NCBI GenBank assembly: GCA_903845065.1
Contig: CAIMWH010000076.1
Span: forward strand, 1-39,433
DNA from: an uncultured Rhodospirillales bacterium
Lineage (GTDB): Bacteria > Pseudomonadota > Alphaproteobacteria > Acetobacterales > Acetobacteraceae
Length of the DNA stretch: 39,433 nucleotides
Direction of reading: 5' to 3'
In this document: piece after piece, positions 9,169 to 17,347 of the stretch
Numbering within the stretch: position 1 is the stretch's first letter
How the letters are laid out: every line of letters starts with the position of its first letter
Notes under the pieces: model-generated
Databases searched by the model: none
What the model saw: only the letters and a program-made list of their open reading frames with translations
Told to the model about the DNA's origin: nothing
Translations under genes and position numbers: made by a program

Positions 9169-9936
9169 CTACCCGTGGCGAACGACGGTGGTCGCCTCGG
9201 CGGGTGGCGCCGGACGGCTGTGCAGCCGCATCCCCTTCGCCACCAGCTTCAGCGCCTCCCAGTGAATGCCCCCCACCACCTTCAGCATCAACAACGGATG
9301 CCGCAGGAAGGTGCCCAGCAACGCGCCGTCGCTGATTTCCCGCCGCGTCCCGGTGAACGTCGCGGTGATCATCGTCCCCACCGCATCGCTCCCCCGCACC
9401 GTCAGCGCCACCTCATCCCCCGGCGGCCGCACGCTGAAATCGTACGCCATATCCATCGCCATGAACGGCGAGACATAGAACGCCTTGTCGCAATGCTGCC
9501 GGATTGGCCGCGCGTCCGGGTCCACCACCGGGATCAGATACGAATGCCGCTGCCCGAAGGTGTTGTTCACCTCGTACAAAATCGCCGCCAGCACCCCATC
9601 CGCGCGATGGCAGAAATACGTGCTGATCGGATTGAACACCAACCCCAGCACCCGCGGATAACACAGCAGCCGCATCGGCCCATCCGCCACAATCCCCGCC
9701 GCCGCCAGCCGCCCGGCGATCTGCTCCCGCAGCGGCACGCCGGATCCATCGCCATGGTCCCGCTCATGGAAGGACAACAGATTGAACCCATCGACCGAAA
9801 AAAACCGGAACCGCCGCCCCAGCTCCGGCAATTCATCCAGGTCGAACAGCATGTTATAAACCCGATACGCCAGCGCATGCCGCCGCGGCCGCACCCGCGC
9901 ATGGGTCACCAGCCCGGGATAAATCCCCGAGATCAC
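9169..9936 (-). CDS. DUF1365 family protein
   Basis: A 255-residue DUF1365 protein: YPGLVTHARVRPRRHALAYR near the N-terminus, RLLCYPRVLGLVFNPISTYF mid-protein and KAFYVSPFMAMDMAY are the family's conserved blocks. No biochemical activity is firmly established for the family. It is repeatedly found next to flavin amine-oxidase-like enzymes and cyclopropane-synthase-family methyltransferases, as here. The start is a GTG at 9936 overlapping the stop of the upstream flavoprotein gene (GTGA), so the two are probably translated in concert. Together they form the minus-strand arm of the rpoE-chrR locus. A role in membrane fatty-acid modification is an inference from this association. Confidence 0.9.
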   Translation of the reverse strand: MISGIYPGLVTHARVRPRRHALAYRVYNMLFDLDELPELGRRFRFFSVDGFNLLSFHERDHGDGSGVPLREQIAGRLAAAGIVADGPMRLLCYPRVLGLVFNPISTYFCHRADGVLAAILYEVNNTFGQRHSYLIPVVDPDARPIRQHCDKAFYVSPFMAMDMAYDFSVRPPGDEVALTVRGSDAVGTMITATFTGTRREISDGALLGTFLRHPLLMLKVVGGIHWEALKLVAKGMRLHSRPAPPAEATTVVRHG

Positions 9937-11297
9937 GCGACCGTCTCATGCGCGCGCCGATGCGCCAGCGGCGGCAAATGAATCCGCCCGGACTCATCGG
10001 GCACCGACCACGGCCGCCTTACCCCGCCGATCGCCTCCGCCACCGCGAGCCCGGACTGCAACCCGTCCTCATGAAACCCGGCGCCAAACCACGCCCCGGC
10101 AAACCAGGTCCGCCGCACCCCCTGCAAGGACCACAACTGCCGCTGCGCCCGGATGGAGCCGGTATCGAACACCGGATGATTGAAGTTCCCCTCGAACAGC
10201 ACCGTCTCCGCCCGCGGCTCGATCGTCGGGTTCAGCGTCACGAACAAATCCGGCCCCGGCAGCCCTTGCAACTCATTCATCCAATACGTCACGCACGGCA
10301 TCCCCGGATCGGCCGAGTCCGTCGAGGACCCGATATAGTTCCAGCTCGCCCACGCCCGCCGCCGTCGCGGCATCAACTTGGCATCCCCGTGCAGAATTGC
10401 CCGATTACGGCTCGGCCGGAACGCGCCCAGCAGCGCCGCCTCCTGCGCATCCGGGTCCGCCAGCATCCCCAGCGCCTGGTCCGCATGCGCCGCCACCACC
10501 ACCTGGTCGAACCGACGGACATCGCCGGTCCCATCCAGCACCGACACCCCGCCAGCATCGCGCTTGATCCCGCGCACCCGCCGCCCGGTCAAAATCCGCC
10601 CCTCCAGCGGCGCCGCCAGATGCCGCACATACTCGCGCGAGCCCCCCAGCACCGTGCGCCACTCGGGCCGCCCATCCACCTGCAACAACCCATGATTGTC
10701 GCAGAACCGCAGGAACGCCGCCGCCGGATGCGCCCGCATCTCGGCGCACGGCGTCGACCAGATGGCAGCCGCCATCGGCAACAAATGATCCTGCTGGAAC
10801 GCCCGGCTATAGCCGTTGCGATCCAAATACGCCCCCAGCGGCTCCAGCGTATCCCACAACTCGGCGATATGCCCGGGCGCCGTGCGATAGAACCGCAGGA
10901 TATCCCGCACCATCCGCAAAAACCGCGGCCTGAACAAATTCCGCTTCTGCGCGAACAACCCGCGCAGATCCGTCCCGTTATACTCCAGCCGCCCCTCATC
11001 CAGGGACACCGCGAAGGACATCTCGGTCGCCCGGCTCGCCACCCCAAGATGGCGGAACATCGCGGTCAGGTTGGGATAATTCGCCTCGTTATAAACGATG
11101 AACCCCACATCCACCGGCACGCCCGTGGGCGAGGTCAGCGTGCACGAATGCCCGCCCACCCGGTCCTCCGCCTCATAGACGGTCACATCATGCCGCCCGG
11201 ACAACAGCCACGCCGCCGACAGCCCCGATATCCCGGTGCCGATCACCGCGATGCGCTGCGGCGTCGCCAAGTCCCGATCGTATCCGTCCAGAGCCAT
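9933..11297 (-). CDS. FAD-dependent amine-oxidase-like oxidoreductase of the RpoE/ChrR locus
   Basis: A 454-residue flavoprotein with an N-terminal dinucleotide fold: IGTGISGLSAAW (residues 19-30) and the ribose-binding acidic strand VYEAEDRVGGHSC (about 40-52). The C-terminal FAD contact WFAGAWFGAGFHEDGLQSG is present. This clade travels with DUF1365 and cyclopropane-synthase-like genes and belongs to the singlet-oxygen sigma-E regulon in Rhodobacter-type bacteria. Relatives have been linked to desaturation or oxidation steps on methylated fatty acids, but which step cannot be fixed here. The start at 11297 follows AGAGG at 11305-11301 on this strand. It is preceded by a promoter-like site matching that of rpoE, so induction with rpoE is predicted. 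Confidence 0.9.
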   Translation of the reverse strand: MALDGYDRDLATPQRIAVIGTGISGLSAAWLLSGRHDVTVYEAEDRVGGHSCTLTSPTGVPVDVGFIVYNEANYPNLTAMFRHLGVASRATEMSFAVSLDEGRLEYNGTDLRGLFAQKRNLFRPRFLRMVRDILRFYRTAPGHIAELWDTLEPLGAYLDRNGYSRAFQQDHLLPMAAAIWSTPCAEMRAHPAAAFLRFCDNHGLLQVDGRPEWRTVLGGSREYVRHLAAPLEGRILTGRRVRGIKRDAGGVSVLDGTGDVRRFDQVVVAAHADQALGMLADPDAQEAALLGAFRPSRNRAILHGDAKLMPRRRRAWASWNYIGSSTDSADPGMPCVTYWMNELQGLPGPDLFVTLNPTIEPRAETVLFEGNFNHPVFDTGSIRAQRQLWSLQGVRRTWFAGAWFGAGFHEDGLQSGLAVAEAIGGVRRPWSVPDESGRIHLPPLAHRRAHETVA

Positions 11298-11329
11298 GCA
11301 AACCTCTTGTCGCGCGTTCGTGCTGTGCT

Positions 11330-11359
11330 CCTATACGCAAGCCGCATCGCGTTGGATGA
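11330..11359 (-). promoter_or_regulatory. Predicted RpoE-dependent promoter for the flavoprotein-DUF1365 arm
   Basis: Reading the minus strand, TCATCC (11359-11354) is followed after exactly 18 bases by TATAGG (11335-11330). This matches the form of the rpoE-side site and resembles the TGATCC-type -35 known for Rhodobacter sphaeroides sigma-E. Transcription would start near 11324, leaving a leader of about 25 bases before the ATG at 11297. The sequence match is seen directly; its function is inferred. Confidence 0.7.
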
Positions 11360-11384
11360 CGCCGGCAAAAGTTTTCGCACCCGG

Positions 11385-11414
11385 TGATCCACCCGGCCCC
11401 ATCGCGCGTATCGG
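11385..11414 (+). promoter_or_regulatory. Predicted RpoE-dependent promoter of the rpoE-chrR operon
   Basis: TGATCC at 11385-11390 is the -35 hexamer described for the Rhodobacter singlet-oxygen sigma-E. After 18 bases comes TATCGG at 11409-11414. A transcript would begin near 11420-11422, which excludes the ATG at 11419 as a start and supports the ATG at 11485. The site faces away from a same-pattern site at 11330-11359, and only 25 bases separate the two -35 hexamers. Confidence 0.72.
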
Positions 11415-11484
11415 AAGCATGCATGAGAGTTTCGTCCGCCATCTCGCGCCGCCACCGCCCCCCGCCTGCCCCGCCAGGCGGCCG

Positions 11485-12051
11485 ATGAGCGTGCCCGACG
11501 ATGCCATCACCCCCGAACACCTCGCGGCCCTGCTCGCCGCGGTGGCGAACCTGCGCAGCCGCCAGGCCTTCGCCGCCCTGTTCGCCCATTTCGCGCCCCG
11601 GGTGAAAACCTACATGCTCCGCCTCGGCGCCCCCTCCGCCCAGGCCGAAGACCTCGCCCAGGAAACCATGCTCACCGTCTGGCGCAAGGCCGAACGCTTC
11701 GATCCCGCCATGGCCGGCGCCGCCACCTGGGTGTTCACCATCGCCCGCAACCTGCGCATCGACGCCCTGCGCCGCGAACGCCCGGTCGCCTCGGTGGACG
11801 AACTCGCCGACACCCCGGCCGATGGCCCAGGCGCCGAAACCATGCTCGAAACCGCCCAGGCCGAACGCAGCCTGCGCGCCGCCCTCGCCGGACTGCCCGA
11901 TGAACAAGCCATGCTGCTCCGCCTGTCCTTCTTCGAGGACCATGCCCACGGCGACATCAGCCGCAAGCTCGGCATGCCGCTCGGCACCGTGAAATCGAAG
12001 CTCCGCCGCGCCCTCACCCGGCTGCGCGCGGCGCTGGAGGACAGACCATGA
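11485..12051 (+). CDS. rpoE: ECF RNA polymerase sigma factor RpoE (singlet-oxygen type)
   Basis: A 188-residue ECF sigma factor. Region 2 includes FAPRVKTYMLRLGAPSAQAE and the core-binding and -10 recognition stretch DLAQETMLTVWRKAERFD. Region 4 holds the helix-turn-helix around HGDISRKLGMPLGTVKSKL, which reads the -35 element. The pairing with a ChrR anti-sigma marks it as the ECF group that answers singlet oxygen in Rhodobacter. The frame is open upstream with an ATG at 11419 (22 extra proline-rich residues), but the predicted promoter lies directly in front of it, so 11485 is chosen. Its stop overlaps the chrR start (ATGA). It is predicted to activate its own operon and the divergent arm. 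Confidence 0.93.
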   Translation: MSVPDDAITPEHLAALLAAVANLRSRQAFAALFAHFAPRVKTYMLRLGAPSAQAEDLAQETMLTVWRKAERFDPAMAGAATWVFTIARNLRIDALRRERPVASVDELADTPADGPGAETMLETAQAERSLRAALAGLPDEQAMLLRLSFFEDHAHGDISRKLGMPLGTVKSKLRRALTRLRAALEDRP

Positions 12052-12680
12052 GCGACCACCACCACCCCTCGGAGGAAACCCTGCTCGCCCACGCCAGCGG
12101 CGGCCTCGACGAGGCGCACCGCGTGGTGATCGCCACCCATCTCGCCGGCTGCCCCGCCTGCCGCCAGTCCGTCCGCCGCGCCGAACGCCTCGGCGGCACC
12201 ATGCTGGCCGCCCTGCCCGCCGCCGAAATGTCCAAAGGCGCCCTCGAAGCCGCCCTCGCCCGCCTCGACGAGCCGGTCCCCGCCCTCCCGCCACCGCCGC
12301 CACTCCCGGCCGGCCTACCCGCCAGCCTGGCCGCGTACCGCATCGGCCGCTGGCGCCGCCCCGCCCCCGGCCTCGGCCTCATCACCATCCTGCCCCCCAC
12401 CGCCCAGCGCGCCGGCCTGCATCTGCTCCGCGTCGCCCCCGGCATGGCCATGCCCGCCCACGGCCACAGCGGCCTCGAACTCACCGCCGTCCTCTCCGGC
12501 GCCTTCGCCGACGATGACGGCATTTTCCACGCTGGTGACGTGTCCGAATGCACCGAGGACGCCCACCACACCCCCATCGCCCACGGCGCCGAGCCCTGCA
12601 TCTGCCTCACCGCCGTCGCCGGCCGCCTGCGCTTCGATCACTGGCTGGCGCGGCTGGTGCAGCCGCTGTTCGGCATCTGA
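12048..12680 (+). CDS. chrR: Anti-sigma factor ChrR (ZAS zinc domain plus cupin)
   Basis: The 210-residue partner that holds RpoE inactive until singlet oxygen appears. The N-terminal zinc anti-sigma domain has H6, H31, C35 and C38 (HLAGCPAC), the same numbering as reported for Rhodobacter ChrR. A proline-rich hinge (LPPPPPLP, about 80-87) leads to a C-terminal cupin. Its candidate metal ligands are H138, H140, E144 and H174 (PAHGHSGLELTAVLSG), with a CxC pair at C184/C186. All of these are offset by three from the Rhodobacter positions as I recall them. The start overlaps the rpoE stop and the stop overlaps the next start (TGATG). All ligand residues are intact, so a working sensor is expected. 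Confidence 0.93.
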   Translation: MSDHHHPSEETLLAHASGGLDEAHRVVIATHLAGCPACRQSVRRAERLGGTMLAALPAAEMSKGALEAALARLDEPVPALPPPPPLPAGLPASLAAYRIGRWRRPAPGLGLITILPPTAQRAGLHLLRVAPGMAMPAHGHSGLELTAVLSGAFADDDGIFHAGDVSECTEDAHHTPIAHGAEPCICLTAVAGRLRFDHWLARLVQPLFGI

Positions 12681-13507
12681 TGAGCCTCACCATGCAACCA
12701 GCCCCGCCCCGCCTGCGCGTCCCCAGCGCGGTGGACGTCATCAACGCCCTCGCACCCCGCCGCAAAGTCCGCTTCGTCAGCGGCCATCGCTACGGCCCCC
12801 ACCCCCGCCACACGCTTGACGTCTACTTCCCCGTCGACGCGCAAGGCCCCGTCCCGGTCGTGGTGTTCTACTACGGCGGCGGCTGGGAGGAGGGCCAACG
12901 CCGCGACTACCGCTTCGTCGGCGCCGCCCTCGCCGCCCGCGGCGTGATGGTCATCCTGCCCGACTACCGCCTCCACCCCGAAGTCACCCACACCGGCTTC
13001 CTCGATGACGCCGCCGCCGCCCTCGCCTGGGCCCGCGCCTTCGCGCCCGATGCCGGCGGCGACCCCAACCGCATCTTCCTCATGGGCCACTCCGCCGGCG
13101 CCTACATCGCCGCCATGCTCGCCCTCGCCCCGCCCTGGCGCAGCGCCCCCCTCGCCGGGGTGATCGGCCTCGCCGGCCCCTACGACTTCCTCCCCGACAC
13201 CCCCGCACGCGAGGCGATGTTCCCCACCGGCGCCGACCTCCCCGCCGCCATGCCGGTCAACCACGCCTTCACCAGCGCCCCCCCGATGCTGCTCGCCACC
13301 GGCAAAGGCGACCGCACCGTGCTGCCCCGCAACACCATCCGCCTCGCCGCCTCGCTGCGCGCCCACGGCACCCCGATCACCGAACGCCACTACCGCGCCA
13401 TCGGCCACAAGCTTGTCCTCGGCGCCATCGCCCGCCCGCTCCAGGTCGCCGCCCCCGTCCTGGCCGACTGCCTCCGCTTCATCGCCGACCCGGCCGCCAT
13501 GTCATGA
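12680..13507 (+). CDS. Alpha/beta-hydrolase-fold esterase in the rpoE-chrR operon
   Basis: A 275-residue alpha/beta hydrolase of the esterase/lipase (BD-FAE or HSL-like) type. The oxyanion-hole motif reads YYGGGWEEG, where most relatives have HGGGW. The nucleophile elbow is GHSAGAY. Candidate acid and histidine residues lie in ATGKGDRTVLP and YRAIGHKL. The N-terminus shows no signal peptide, so it should be cytoplasmic. I chose the ATG at 12680, which overlaps the chrR stop as TGATG; an ATG at 12692 is a second possibility. Its stop overlaps the DUF1295 start. Placement suggests it acts on lipids, perhaps releasing or recycling acyl chains, but this is inference only. Confidence 0.86.
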   Translation: MSLTMQPAPPRLRVPSAVDVINALAPRRKVRFVSGHRYGPHPRHTLDVYFPVDAQGPVPVVVFYYGGGWEEGQRRDYRFVGAALAARGVMVILPDYRLHPEVTHTGFLDDAAAALAWARAFAPDAGGDPNRIFLMGHSAGAYIAAMLALAPPWRSAPLAGVIGLAGPYDFLPDTPAREAMFPTGADLPAAMPVNHAFTSAPPMLLATGKGDRTVLPRNTIRLAASLRAHGTPITERHYRAIGHKLVLGAIARPLQVAAPVLADCLRFIADPAAMS

Positions 13508-14307
13508 CCCTCACCACCATCACCCTCGCAGCCGCCCTCGAACTCCTGGCCGCGATGTCCCTCGCCTGGCTCGCCCAGTACCGCACCGGCAACTGCGGCT
13601 GGGTCGATGTCGCCTGGAGCTTCGGCACCGGCCTCGCCGGCATCACCCTCGCCCTCGCCCCCCTCGACGGCCACACGCCCGACTGGCGCCAATGGGCCGT
13701 CGCCGCCCTGATCGCCGCCTGGTCCCTCCGCCTCGGCCTGCACATCGCCGCCCGCGCCGCCCAAGGCATCGATGACCCGCGCTACGCCGCCCTGCGCGTC
13801 GAATGGGCCGCCGCCTTCCAGTGGCGCCTTGCCGTCTTTCTGCTCATCCAGGCCTCCGTCGCCCTCGGCCTCGCCGCCTCCATGGCCCTCGCCGCCCGCA
13901 ACCCCCAGGGCGGCGGCCCGCTCGATATCCTCGGCATCGCCGTCCTCATCATCGGCATCACCGGCGAAGGCGCCGCCGACCGCACCCTGCGCCGCTTCAA
14001 GGCCAACCCCGCCAATCGCGGCCGCATCTGCGACATTGGCCTCTGGGCTTGGTCCCGCCACCCCAACTACTTCTTCGAATGGTTCGGCTGGCTCGCCTAC
14101 CCGCTGCTGGCGATCTCCAGCGGCTGGCCCTGGGGCTGGCTCGCCCTCTCCGGCCCCGCCTTGATGTTCTGGGCCCTCCGCCACGCCTCCGGCGTCCCCC
14201 CGCTCGAAGCCCACATGGCCGGCCGCTACGGCCCCGCCTGGGCCGCCTACACCGCCCGCGTCAGCATCTTCTTCCCCCGCCCTCCCACCCGCGAGGCAAC
14301 CCCATGA
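13504..14307 (+). CDS. DUF1295 membrane protein (steroid 5-alpha-reductase-like fold)
   Basis: A 267-residue polytopic membrane protein with about seven hydrophobic segments. The DUF1295 signature RICDIGLWAWSRHPNYFFEW near residues 175-195 is clear; this region corresponds to the cofactor-binding end of the isoprenylcysteine-methyltransferase/steroid-reductase superfamily. The N-terminal YRTGNCGWVDVAWSF is also typical. Members are found with cyclopropane-synthase-family genes in singlet-oxygen loci and are thought to act on lipids, but the reaction is not established for this clade. It overlaps both neighbours by ATGA, so it is translationally coupled to the esterase and the methyltransferase. 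Confidence 0.9.
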   Translation: MTLTTITLAAALELLAAMSLAWLAQYRTGNCGWVDVAWSFGTGLAGITLALAPLDGHTPDWRQWAVAALIAAWSLRLGLHIAARAAQGIDDPRYAALRVEWAAAFQWRLAVFLLIQASVALGLAASMALAARNPQGGGPLDILGIAVLIIGITGEGAADRTLRRFKANPANRGRICDIGLWAWSRHPNYFFEWFGWLAYPLLAISSGWPWGWLALSGPALMFWALRHASGVPPLEAHMAGRYGPAWAAYTARVSIFFPRPPTREATP

Positions 14308-15326
14308 GCATGATCGCCAAAGCCACCATCCTGGCCGAACGCCTCCCTTTGCCGGACAGCCTCACCGAATGGGGCATCTCCCGCCTCGTCGGCCAACGCC
14401 GCCGCTCCCTGGTGGACGCCGCCGCCGCCGAACGCAGCTTCGCCGCCGGCATGGACAGCCGCGCCATCGCCGAATTCACCGCCGACGCCAACGCCCAGCA
14501 CTACGAAGTCCCCGCCGCCTTCTTCGATATCGTGCTCGGCCCGCGCAAGAAATACTCCTGCTGCCTCTACCCCACCCCCGCCACCACGCTGGCACAAGCC
14601 GAGGAACTGGCGCTCGACGCAACCTGCACCCGCGCCGACCTCGCCGACGGCCAGGACATCCTCGAACTCGGCTGTGGCTGGGGCTCCCTCTCGCTGTGGA
14701 TGGCCGAACGCTACCCCGCCGCCCGCATCACCTCGGTCTCCAACTCCCACTCCCAGCGCGCCTGGATCACCGCCGAAGCCGCCGCCCGCGGCCTGCGCAA
14801 CCTCACCGTCATCACCGCCGACATGAACGAGTTCGCCACCACCGGCCGGTTCGACCGCGTGGTCTCGGTCGAGATGTTCGAACACATGTCCAACTGGCGC
14901 AGCCTCCTCGGCCGCATCCAGGCCTGGCTCCGCCCCGACGGCCGCCTCTTCCTCCACGTCTTCAGCCACCGCAGCCAGCCCTACCGGTTCGACCCCGCCG
15001 ACAAGGACGACTGGATCGCCCAGCATTTCTTCACCGGCGGCGTCATGCCCAGCCACGGCCTCATCCGCCAGTTCGCCGATATCTTCACCGTCGAGGCCGA
15101 ATGGCAGTGGAACGGCGTCCACTATGAACGCACCGCGCGGGACTGGCTCACCAACATGGACCGTCATGCCGACGAGGTCGCCGCCATCATGCGCCAGGTC
15201 TACGGCCGTGACGCCGCGGTCTGGACCCGCCGCTGGCGCCTGTTCTTCCTCGCCACCGCCGGCCTGTTCGGCCACGCCAACGGCCATGAATGGGGCATCA
15301 GCCACTGGCGGCTGGCTCCCGCGTGA
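14304..15326 (+). CDS. Cyclopropane-fatty-acid-synthase-family SAM methyltransferase
   Basis: A 340-residue SAM-dependent methyltransferase that would add a methyl or methylene carbon to unsaturated acyl chains of membrane phospholipids. Visible blocks are HYEVPAAFFDIVLGPRKKYS (66-85), the SAM site ILELGCGWGSLSLWMAE (119-135) and SVEMFEHM. Residues matching the E. coli bicarbonate-site Cys, Glu, His and Tyr appear in YSCCLY, MFEHM, FLHVFSH and GVHYERT. It is shorter than housekeeping Cfa (about 380 residues) and has a reduced N-terminal domain. In Rhodobacter, related regulon enzymes make methylated precursors of furan fatty acids. It overlaps both neighbours (ATGA, GTGA). Whether the product is cyclopropane or methylated is undecided. 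Confidence 0.92.
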   Translation: MSMIAKATILAERLPLPDSLTEWGISRLVGQRRRSLVDAAAAERSFAAGMDSRAIAEFTADANAQHYEVPAAFFDIVLGPRKKYSCCLYPTPATTLAQAEELALDATCTRADLADGQDILELGCGWGSLSLWMAERYPAARITSVSNSHSQRAWITAEAAARGLRNLTVITADMNEFATTGRFDRVVSVEMFEHMSNWRSLLGRIQAWLRPDGRLFLHVFSHRSQPYRFDPADKDDWIAQHFFTGGVMPSHGLIRQFADIFTVEAEWQWNGVHYERTARDWLTNMDRHADEVAAIMRQVYGRDAAVWTRRWRLFFLATAGLFGHANGHEWGISHWRLAPA

Positions 15327-15859
15327 AGCGCCTCCTCACCCATGATGACCCGCTGGTGGCCGCCGCCGCGTTCCTCGCCGTCCTCCTGGCGTCCAACCAG
15401 CCGGTCTACCCGCTCTACGTCTGGCTGATCGCGGGCGAAGGCGCCGGCCGCGCCGCCATCGTGCTGGCCGCCGTCCCGGTCTTCCTCGCCGTGCCCCTGG
15501 TGGCGCGCGCCTCGGGAAAAGCTGCCCGCGCCCTGCTCCCCATCGCCGGCATCCTCAATACGCTGCTCGCCTCCTGGGTGATGGGCCCCGAAGCCGGCCT
15601 CGCCGCCTTCTTCATCCCCTGCGCCGCCCTCGGCGCCGTCCTATTCCGCCGCACCGAACGCCGCGCGATGATCGCTATCGTCGCCGTTTCCGCCGCCGCC
15701 TGGCTCCTGTCCGAAACCTTCGCCCCCGGCCCCTTCAGCCCCGAGGCCTACGCCAGCCTGCGCCGCATGAACGCCCTCAGCGCCATCGCCCTCTGCGGCC
15801 TGATCGGCTGGCTCACCCCTCCGGAGCCGCTTCCGGCACCGCTTCCGCCGCCTGCTTGA
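15323..15859 (+). CDS. Small polytopic membrane protein, last gene of the rpoE-chrR operon
   Basis: I do not recognise this 178-residue protein. It begins at a GTG at 15323 that overlaps the methyltransferase stop (GTGA), giving the N-terminus MKRLLTHDDPLVAAAAFLAVL. It has about six hydrophobic segments of 16-22 residues with short loops, and one basic cytoplasmic patch, FRRTERRAM. One conserved-looking stretch after the first helix reads ASNQPVYPLYVWLIAG. The C-terminus is proline-rich (PPEPLPAPLPPPA), and its last 47 bases overlap pssA on the other strand. Coupling to the lipid-modifying genes implies a membrane-lipid role, by inference. Confidence 0.78.
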   Translation: MKRLLTHDDPLVAAAAFLAVLLASNQPVYPLYVWLIAGEGAGRAAIVLAAVPVFLAVPLVARASGKAARALLPIAGILNTLLASWVMGPEAGLAAFFIPCAALGAVLFRRTERRAMIAIVAVSAAAWLLSETFAPGPFSPEAYASLRRMNALSAIALCGLIGWLTPPEPLPAPLPPPA

Positions 15860-16634
15860 GCATCCGATAGCTCCGCGCGCTGAACGGCAGCATACCGATA
15901 TAAATCAACCCGCCGATCGCCAGCGCCCCCCAGGGATCGGCCACCAGCAGCGCCGCATACAACCCGATCCCCAGCATCGTCGGCAGCACCATGCTGGCCC
16001 GCATCTTGAAGTTCTTGAAATTCCACACCGGCAACGTGGACACCAGCAGCAGCGCCGTACCCACCAGCATCACCGCACAGAACAACGGTGCATGGACAAT
16101 CCGCAGCAACCAGTCCCACCCCAGCGCCTTCGCCTCCAGCCCGGCGAACAACGGGAACAACACCAGCCCGGCCCCCGCCGGCGCCGGCACCCCGGTGAAG
16201 AAATTATACGTATACGCCGGATGCGGCGCATCAAGCGCCGCATTGAACCGCGCCAGCCGCAGCGCCATGCACACCGCGAACATCAGGCACGGCACGAACC
16301 CGAACCCCCCAGCCGACTGCAACGTCCACAAATACAAAATGAACGCCGGCGCCACGCCGAAGCACAAGAAGTCCGCCAGGCTGTCGAACTCCGCCCCGAA
16401 CCGGGACGTCGCCTTCAACAGCCGCGCGATCCGCCCATCCAGCCCGTCGATCGCCGCCGACACCACAATCGCCACCGCCGCCGCGCCAAACCGCCCCTCC
16501 AGCGCGAACCGCATCCCGGTCAGCCCCGAGCACAGCCCCAGCATCGTCAGGATATTGGGGATCATCCGGTTGAACGACGGCCCCTGGAACCGCGGCCGCA
16601 ACCGTGGCCGCAACCGTGTGCGCAGCTTGCGCAT
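15813..16634 (-). CDS. pssA: CDP-diacylglycerol-serine O-phosphatidyltransferase
   Basis: PssA makes phosphatidylserine from CDP-diacylglycerol and serine at the inner membrane, the step before phosphatidylethanolamine. The CDP-alcohol phosphotransferase signature DGxxAR...G...D...D is clear in DGLDGRIARLLKATSRFG followed by AEFDSLAD. Several hydrophobic helices follow. The start at 16634 is chosen because GGAGG sits 5 bases upstream; this gives 273 residues. A GTG at 16679 overlapping the psd stop, or an ATG at 16655, would add 15 or 7 residues. The N-terminus is very basic and repetitive (TRLRPRLRPRF), from a 12-base tandem repeat at 16591-16626. The 3' end overlaps the RpoE operon by 47 bases. 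Confidence 0.93.
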   Translation of the reverse strand: MRKLRTRLRPRLRPRFQGPSFNRMIPNILTMLGLCSGLTGMRFALEGRFGAAAVAIVVSAAIDGLDGRIARLLKATSRFGAEFDSLADFLCFGVAPAFILYLWTLQSAGGFGFVPCLMFAVCMALRLARFNAALDAPHPAYTYNFFTGVPAPAGAGLVLFPLFAGLEAKALGWDWLLRIVHAPLFCAVMLVGTALLLVSTLPVWNFKNFKMRASMVLPTMLGIGLYAALLVADPWGALAIGGLIYIGMLPFSARSYRMLKQAAEAVPEAAPEG

Positions 16635-16675
16635 CGAAGCCTCCACCAACGGCATCGGACGCGGACGGCTGCCGC

Positions 16676-17347
16676 TCACCGGTCCAGCTCCGCGATCACC
16701 GTCTCGCCCCCGATCATCGTCTGGCCCACGCTCACCAGCGGCAACACCCCGTGCGGCAGATACAAATCCGTCCGGCTGCCGAAGCGGATGATGCCGAACC
16801 GCCCGCCCGTCTCCACCGTCTCGCCCTCGCGCACATCGCACAGAATGCGCCGCGCGATCAGCCCGGCAATCTGCACCACGGCGATATCCCGCCCATCCTC
16901 CAGCCGGATCGCCAGCGCATTGCGCTCGTTATCGGTGCTCGCCTTGTCCATGTTGGCGCTGAGGAACTTGCCATGCCGATACGCAATCCGCGTCACCGTG
17001 CCGGCAATCGGCGCCCGGTTGACGTGCACATCCAGCACCGAGAGGAAAATCGCCACCCGCCAGCGCGGCTCGGCCCCCAGGTCAAGCTCCTCGGGCGGCA
17101 CCGCCAGCATCACCGAGACGATATGCCCATCCGCCGGCGCCACCAGCACCCCCGCCCGCTCCGGCACGCTGCGCTCCGGATCGCGGAAGAAATACAGGCA
17201 GAACAGCACGAACAACCCGCCCAGCCAGATCAGCCACTGGCCGAGGAACACCCCGATCAGCGCGGCAACCGCGCCGCCGATGATGAACGGCCGGCCGGCG
17301 GGATGCGGCGGGGCAAGCACAAGTCGGAGGGAAGCGGCGAGCGCCAT
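16676..17347 (-). CDS. psd: Phosphatidylserine decarboxylase (short, PSD-A type)
   Basis: Psd decarboxylates phosphatidylserine to phosphatidylethanolamine at the membrane, using a pyruvoyl group made by self-cleavage. The 223-residue length fits the short alphaproteobacterial form. The cleavage site is the Gly-Ser in RFGIIRFGSRTDLYLPHG near the C-terminus. An N-terminal hydrophobic pair (FIIGGAVAALIGVFLGQWL and the next segment) anchors it, followed by VLVAPADGHIV, a family landmark. The start at 17347 gives MALAASLRLVL. pssA lies immediately downstream, so one transcript supplies both steps. It is divergent from the unknown gene at 17432. Confidence 0.94.
   Translation of the reverse strand: MALAASLRLVLAPPHPAGRPFIIGGAVAALIGVFLGQWLIWLGGLFVLFCLYFFRDPERSVPERAGVLVAPADGHIVSVMLAVPPEELDLGAEPRWRVAIFLSVLDVHVNRAPIAGTVTRIAYRHGKFLSANMDKASTDNERNALAIRLEDGRDIAVVQIAGLIARRILCDVREGETVETGGRFGIIRFGSRTDLYLPHGVLPLVSVGQTMIGGETVIAELDR

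Follow-up and report, generated by a model that had tools for sequence, protein, structure and literature searches.

The window analyzed here is the whole 39,433-nucleotide stretch of contig CAIMWH010000076.1 (GenBank assembly GCA_903845065.1), from an uncultured Rhodospirillales bacterium of the family Acetobacteraceae, and at positions 9169-15859 it carries eight genes in two divergent arms. These form an RpoE/ChrR-controlled unit with a membrane-lipid role that is real and conserved, with promoters to match. We interpret the unit, with a probability of about 0.8, as the part of a furan-fatty-acid response to singlet oxygen that is controlled by a sigma/anti-sigma pair of the ECF11 group. 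A first-pass annotation of this DNA had proposed RpoE/ChrR together with a Ufa-type furan-fatty-acid pathway. The control, UfaD, UfaO and the membrane-lipid role hold up, whereas the assignment of the methyltransferase as UfaM does not: homology predicts an enzyme of the FufM type, acting later in the pathway than first thought. What the analysis itself observed, as described below, is the set of genes, the match to the promoter, the clades, the residues that tell the methylases apart and the conserved neighborhood. Papers are cited by PubMed Central (PMC) number, and statements about them refer to the parts of their text that were available.

Layout and control of the unit

All eight genes lie where the first-pass annotation had placed them and each protein has a Pfam match over cut-off; the overlapping junctions described for each arm measure 4 bases throughout, except for 1 base (TGATG) between chrR and the hydrolase gene. 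The left arm, on the minus strand, holds a ufaD-type gene (9933..11297) for a flavin adenine dinucleotide (FAD) oxidoreductase (Pfam Amino_oxidase), by homology a putative desaturase of the methylated chain, and an adjoining ufaO-type gene (9169..9936) for a DUF1365 protein (Pfam DUF1365, 260.7 bits, cut-off 25), by homology a putative furan-forming oxygenase. For comparison, six named Rhodopseudomonas genomes were reached via a marker peptide. The window FAD protein is 46-47% identical to the product of their UfaD-position gene, and the DUF1365 protein is 46-47% identical to that of the gene flanked by UfaD and the UfaM-position gene; by homology to these Rhodopseudomonas proteins and by placement, both belong with UfaD and UfaO. 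The FAD-motif glycines 20, 22 and 25 of UfaD are conserved in 60 of 60 aligned rows.

The right arm, on the plus strand, opens with a gene for an rpoE-type extracytoplasmic function (ECF) sigma factor (11419 or 11485..12051; Pfam Sigma70_r2 and r4). It is followed by chrR (12048..12680), which encodes an anti-sigma factor with zinc and cupin domains (TIGR02451, 175.3 bits, cut-off 124.5) that falls below the cut-off of the narrower model NF051881 (170.3 versus 300) and aligns to the solved ChrR 2z2s at 2e-34. Residues H6, H31, C35, C38, H138, H140 and E144 are present in all 27 aligned rows and H174 in 26 of them. Taking these residues to be the N-terminal zinc and C-terminal cupin ligands, as we presume, the window ChrR carries both ligand sets of an ECF11 sigma/ChrR pair. 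The remaining genes encode an alpha/beta hydrolase (esterase/lipase; 12680..13507; Pfam BD-FAE and Abhydrolase_3), a DUF1295 membrane protein related to steroid 5-alpha-reductases (13504..14307; Pfam DUF1295, 191.7 bits), a CMAS/Cfa-like methyltransferase of 340 amino acids (14304..15326) that clade and identity assign to the fufM type, and a stand-alone MASE7-like membrane protein with a GTG start (15323..15859; Pfam MASE7, 1.6e-7).

The right arm is preceded by an exact match to the ECF11-type promoter TGATCC-N16-CGTA (11385..11410, plus strand), and the left arm by a one-base variant of that consensus, TCATCC-N16-CGTA (11334..11359, minus strand); most of the rpoE-bearing relatives compared have TGATCC at the left-arm position. 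The sequence TGATCC-N16-CGTA is the consensus for the Pseudomonas syringae ECF11 sigma factor (PMC5507510), is given for Pos19 of Rhodobacter sphaeroides (PMC5036791) and appears as listed sites for Shewanella rpoE2 (PMC4336711). The exact motif occurs four times in the whole genome and 0 times in the control. A genome-wide ECF11 regulon was considered and rejected, the three exact sites besides the window's (L233, L234 and L235) lying inside or antisense to long open frames. The -10 element of the right-arm promoter ends 9 bases before the in-frame ATG at 11419 (window 11385-11421), and rpoE may start there nearly leaderless, with 11485 as the alternative start.

The neighborhood comparison that the first-pass annotation had suggested shows the unit recurring among family relatives. 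A UfaD search of 150 family genomes gave strong matches (>300 bits) in 52; matches at E up to 0.001 occur in 114 of the 150, those beyond the 52 being short and weak. Neighborhoods came from 53 family loci (L037-L089), of which L080, without UfaD, was dropped from the cluster count, and they were split by UfaD score into a window-like group of 36, which counts the window itself, and a second group of 17. In the tallies over the 36 loci, contig-end cuts count as lacking, and two loci, L057 and L058, are near-copies. The rpoE gene heads the right arm in 25 of the 36 versus 0 of the 17, where no more than the Cfa-ufaO-ufaD side is present. Of the window-like loci, 31 have DUF1295 in the right arm, 29 a fufM-type gene, 22 the hydrolase and 17 a MASE7-like gene; 12/36 show the full order rpoE-chrR-hydrolase-DUF1295-fufM-MASE7. 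In 30/36 loci the left arm continues after ufaO with a second Cfa-type gene, of full length, which neither the window nor its congeners L037 and L038 have there. Because the same arrangement recurs in relatives, the unit is not a chance arrangement. Nor is the joining of sensor and lipid enzymes in one operon special to this DNA, as had been thought, since 25 of the 36 window-like loci, and Shinella, have it.

Scanned as T[GC]ATCC-N16-CGTA, the promoter motif is found in both directions in 18 of the 25 loci whose right arm begins with rpoE and in at least one direction in 20 of them (L052 counted as a miss, yet both its sites are present further off; L071, whose rpoE sits at the distal end of the arm, is in neither class). 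It is found in 1 of 10 loci of the window-like group without rpoE and in 0 of 17 in the second group. The gaps account for 38 locus-sides in 8.8 kb, versus 13 hits in 756 kb elsewhere in the same loci.

Two side observations concern these loci. L057 and L058 (G133:C127 and G147:C94), labeled as different genera, have a near-identical cluster region with 11599 of 11932 31-mers in common, which suggests contamination or recent transfer. Convergent to the unit, pssA- and psd-type genes (phosphatidylserine synthase and decarboxylase; Pfam) lie at window 15816-17347 on the minus strand; among the 35 family loci scanned (L037-L071), they stand beside the unit only in the congener L037.

The window methyltransferase groups with FufM-position proteins

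A tree of 104 proteins was built by a quick method with Shimodaira-Hasegawa-like approximate likelihood ratio test (SH-aLRT) supports. The window methyltransferase and its relatives, 47 proteins including six from Rhodopseudomonas and hereafter called M proteins, form one clade (SH-aLRT 100), while the UfaM clade (SH-aLRT 98) comprises 51 genes beside ufaO together with a protein encoded on contig C314 of the window's own genome. The M and C sides of the tree join via long branches, as the tool warned; membership within each side is independent of that join. Within the M clade, the window protein is 59-62% identical to the Rhodopseudomonas fufM-position protein encoded behind DUF1295.

All six Rhodopseudomonas genomes have a ufaD-ufaO-Cfa cluster in the same order as RPA2571-2569 of R. 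palustris and, apart from it, a second locus with DUF1295 followed by the fufM-position gene; four of the six have a third, lone Cfa-type gene. The products of RPA2571-2569 are reported as necessary and sufficient for monomethyl furan; RPA3082 of R. palustris CGA009 is 38% identical to R. sphaeroides UfaM and is reported to have no phenotype; RPA0924 is fufM, 26% identical to R. sphaeroides UfaM, with RPA0923 before it according to the order in a cloning table (PMC7380195). We took the DUF1295-preceded Rhodopseudomonas gene as fufM because its product shares 28-33% identity with the UfaM-position proteins of the same six genomes and because its DUF1295 neighbor has the position of RPA0923. FufM is reported to methylate furan in vitro and in vivo, converting mono- to dimethyl-furan fatty acid (PMC7380195), a reaction that the window protein would share by homology. 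FufM itself is reported as 38% identical to Arabidopsis AT4G33110 in PMC10940516, which gives the accessions Q6NBA4 for FufM, Q3J4I7 for UfaM, Q3IYV7 for UfaD and Q3IYV8 for UfaO.

Two residues separate the methylase groups in all rows, 51 and 47 (A or H in EM.E[AH], and Q or H at the site of the E. coli Cfa His). The 51 UfaM-position proteins all have EM.EA plus Q and the 47 M proteins all have EM.EH plus H, the window reading EMFEH and H; Cfa-type proteins carry GMFEH and H. The Cys site is non-diagnostic: UfaM proteins carry S or A, the window protein carries C, and 19 of the 47 M proteins carry S. The rule of EM.EA plus Q for UfaM was devised in this analysis, and the window methyltransferase falls outside UfaM both by this rule and by the clade next to ufaD-ufaO.

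The first-pass annotation had seen in this protein UfaM itself, performing the first step on the 18:1 chain, as its Pfam family (CMAS) and its presence in one unit with UfaD and UfaO would allow. Aligned and treed against UfaM, however, it lies outside the UfaM clade and falls with the FufM-position genes, it has H at both sites where 51/51 UfaM-position proteins have A and Q, and a UfaM-type protein exists on contig C314; we consider this assignment extremely unlikely. A Cfa-like gene beside ufaD-ufaO need not be UfaM, which is a warning for annotation.

The C314 protein is the genome's UfaM by clade, by its UfaM residue set and by its place directly behind a photolyase-like frame (Pfam FAD_binding_7, 1.7e-84). 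In both congeners ufaM also lies outside the cluster and behind a photolyase-like frame, with 83% and 80% identity to this copy, and RSP_2143 and RSP_2144 of R. sphaeroides are listed as photolyase and Cfa (PMC5507510). On C314 a LuxR-type gene, the photolyase and the ufaM-type gene stand in a row (L091:5287-8670), a row without ECF11 motif, and something other than ECF11 may control the first step of the pathway.

An ordinary cyclopropane synthase, in a unit that makes cyclopropane fatty acids, was also considered. The window protein agrees with E. coli Cfa in the positions of Cys, Glu and His, residues whose role in that enzyme we take as given. However, with 340 amino acids and a Cfa match only from about residue 61, it is not a full-length Cfa with the N-terminal domain. 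The nearest solved structures are coclaurine-type N-methyltransferases (8.5e-63), with E. coli Cfa, which we take 6bqc to be, further away (1.9e-25). In addition, the same genome encodes on contig C32 a separate Cfa-type protein with the Cfa residue set, which groups with the four lone Cfa-type Rhodopseudomonas genes (SH-aLRT 96). The cyclopropane synthase was rejected on the structure matches, the residues and the C32 protein, and we give it hardly any chance.

Beyond the family, the window methyltransferase has relatives at E up to 1e-40 in at least 12 of 337 genomes sampled from the class (own included; up to six candidates scored per genome), and the fufM-type gene is sporadic in this sample. 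A plasmid collection yielded 44 records with an M relative at the same threshold, mostly from Rhizobium, Shinella, Acinetobacter and Ensifer; a DUF1295 annotation stands under the match in 20 of the 44 rows, a count from incomplete annotation. Relatives below about 50% identity (Acinetobacter and Burkholderiaceae rows) may be another group. Three records were opened, from Shinella zoogloeoides, Rhizobium tropici and R. leguminosarum. The first two hold UfaD, UfaO, a UfaM-type gene, rpoE-chrR, DUF1295, M and a MASE7-like gene within 10 kb; the stretch examined in R. leguminosarum has this set without UfaO and without the second Cfa. DUF2177 and DUF2147 lie beside the cluster in all three (L257:9599-10502, L258:2754-3568 and L259:4684-5501); DUF2177 was not found in the window's genome. 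The R. tropici plasmid (pRtrCIAT899a, L258), which carries the furan-lipid and RpoE/ChrR cluster, is typed as conjugative, and on this typing the kit may be mobile.

DUF1295, the hydrolase and the MASE7-like protein

In 42 of the 47 M loci examined, the fufM-type gene has DUF1295 as its direct neighbor, and in 18 of the 47 a MASE7-like gene comes directly after it. The first of these counts also suits a rival account in which the methylase and DUF1295 form a separate pathway to another methylated membrane lipid and merely share the RpoE/ChrR promoter, as do the distribution of UfaD (in 36/47 loci, missing in 11, some of them cut by contig ends) and the Rhodopseudomonas pair, which lies apart from ufaD-ufaO-ufaM. 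Yet the Rhodopseudomonas member is by position FufM, reported to methylate furan in vitro and in vivo (PMC7380195), and we judge a separate pathway improbable.

The DUF1295 protein matches Steroid_dh with 30 bits (cut-off 22.6) and its RHPNY motif at 185-189 is present in 47/47 rows. For the hydrolase, a putative triad assigned by motif consists of S138 in GHSAG (22/22 rows), D211 (21/22) and H243 (21/22). The last gene product, described earlier as a mere six-helix protein, matches Pfam MASE7 (PF20967) with 31.7 bits against a cut-off of 26.2, as do ten aligned relatives; matches occur in all 11 aligned rows at E up to 1, the best at 9e-10. The gene called hypothetical after M in the three Rhizobiaceae plasmids encodes a protein 34-39% identical to it, with the Pfam match over the cut-off in Shinella, under it in another and missing in the third. 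MASE domains usually come joined to an output domain, which the window protein lacks: its sequence stops behind MASE7. A literature search on MASE7 found none. The six-helix protein and the esterase had been described as without a known place in the pathway; the six-helix gene is conserved directly after the fufM-type gene in the 18 loci given above and in the three plasmids. Two single-sequence structure models reached mean predicted local distance difference test (pLDDT) values of 51 and 55, too poor for use.

Steroid 5-alpha-reductases reduce the double bond next to a ketone, and the products of furan chain oxidation are enediones. UfaM, UfaD and UfaO suffice for monomethyl furan in R. sphaeroides, and FufM with S-adenosylmethionine for the second methyl (PMC7380195). 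Because these enzymes are reported to be sufficient, synthesis probably does not depend on DUF1295, the hydrolase or the MASE7-like protein, unless R. sphaeroides has counterparts of its own. We propose that they may process oxidized furan lipids: since the Steroid_dh score lies above cut-off and the presumed hydrolase triad is kept, DUF1295 and the hydrolase could clear oxidized furan chains. In its full form, the proposal has DUF1295 as a membrane reductase dependent on reduced nicotinamide adenine dinucleotide phosphate that would disarm enedione chains, the hydrolase as the enzyme that would cut the chains out and the MASE7-like protein as one that would sense or present them, with the set of Cfa-type and coclaurine-type methylases, DUF1365, DUF1295 and DUF2177 as a membrane kit common to bacteria and green algae; this is speculative and, as a whole, rather unlikely.

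Alternatively, rather than processing oxidized lipids, DUF1295 may act in biosynthesis as a reductase or be a second, ICMT-like methyltransferase. Its superfamily holds both methyltransferases and reductases, and a weak ICMT match (E 0.002) lies below cut-off. Against this stand the Steroid_dh match above cut-off and the reported sufficiency of FufM and UfaM/D/O (PMC7380195), and we regard it as a serious possibility that falls short of even odds. A limited literature search found no link between DUF1295 and the furan pathway. For the proposed processing role, the conserved DUF1295-fufM pair and its MASE7-like neighbor offer concrete candidates for the fate of oxidized furan chains.

A probable response to singlet oxygen and its known counterparts

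Scavenging of singlet oxygen is the presumed role of furan fatty acids; singlet oxygen destroys the furan chains, and the products may signal to ChrR (PMC6852236). In the proposed mechanism, ChrR would hold the sigma factor until singlet oxygen or organic peroxides free RpoE, which would then fire the divergent promoter pair. The left arm would supply UfaD and UfaO, and the right arm more RpoE, ChrR, the hydrolase, DUF1295, the FufM-type methylase and the MASE7-like protein. UfaM, from the separate photolyase-ufaM locus, would methylate the 18:1 chain, UfaD would desaturate the methylated chain, UfaO would close the furan ring and FufM would add the second methyl. DUF1295 might then reduce the enedione and the hydrolase release the oxidized chain, with support from the MASE7-like protein in the membrane. 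The trigger and the four lipid reactions are transferred here, as predictions, from published work on homologs.

Several points weigh against this interpretation. For this organism the case is built on sequence comparison. The left-arm promoter is a variant, and the motif widened to admit it occurs 13 times in the genome (nine as TCATCC, one the window's own) and 3 times in the control; under the scan rule the two-way motif is missing in 7 of the 25 rpoE-bearing loci. A motif scan of the photolyase-ufaM contig C314 found neither the exact nor the TCATCC promoter, and for this reason UfaM may escape induction with the rest of the unit. FufM activity was demonstrated for one protein (PMC7380195), and the equation of M with RPA0924, by position and published identity, and of DUF1295 with RPA0923, by position, comes from six Rhodopseudomonas genomes other than CGA009. 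For RPA0923 the available part of the source reports no deletion phenotype (PMC7380195), and sufficiency was tested in R. sphaeroides, which might supply its own counterparts, for example of DUF1295. Finally, the hydrolase is optional, in keeping with an accessory role: 22/36 clusters have it, and tblastn detected no relative of it in any of the three Rhizobiaceae loci. Two alpha/beta hydrolase genes are annotated a few kilobases past the R. tropici cluster, and the P. syringae genes with an ECF11 promoter include an esterase (PMC5507510).

Among known systems, a possible parallel in Mycobacterium, a sigK cluster with similar lipid families, was not found in a literature search and is not used. 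In Chlamydomonas, the SAK1-dependent genes induced by singlet oxygen include CFA1, CFA2, DUF1365, DUF1295 and DUF2177, with CFA2 named elsewhere in the paper as CPLD27, a coclaurine N-methyltransferase (PMC4067076). The organism is eukaryotic, its regulator is a different one and the list contains many unrelated genes; the likeness is one of families only. Closer to the window, Shinella zoogloeoides (NZ_CP132313.1) and Rhizobium tropici CIAT 899 (pRtrCIAT899a) share its gene set in a compact cluster, but theirs is without a relative of the window hydrolase (tblastn), has DUF2177 and DUF2147 and includes the UfaM-type gene.

The R. sphaeroides RpoE-ChrR regulon has the sigma/anti-sigma pair and the promoter consensus in common with the window, and likewise has UfaD and UfaO (RSP1091-1087) and, apart from them, a photolyase-ufaM locus (RSP2143-2144; numbers from PMC7380195 and PMC5507510). 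In contrast, the window has rpoE-chrR in the same divergent unit and adds the fufM-type, DUF1295, hydrolase and MASE7-like genes. R. palustris (RPA2571-2569 and RPA0923-0924) resembles the window in having all four furan enzymes and, by position, DUF1295 directly before fufM. Whereas the two loci lie apart in the six Rhodopseudomonas genomes, in the window ufaD-ufaO and DUF1295-fufM flank rpoE-chrR, with ufaM elsewhere in the genome.

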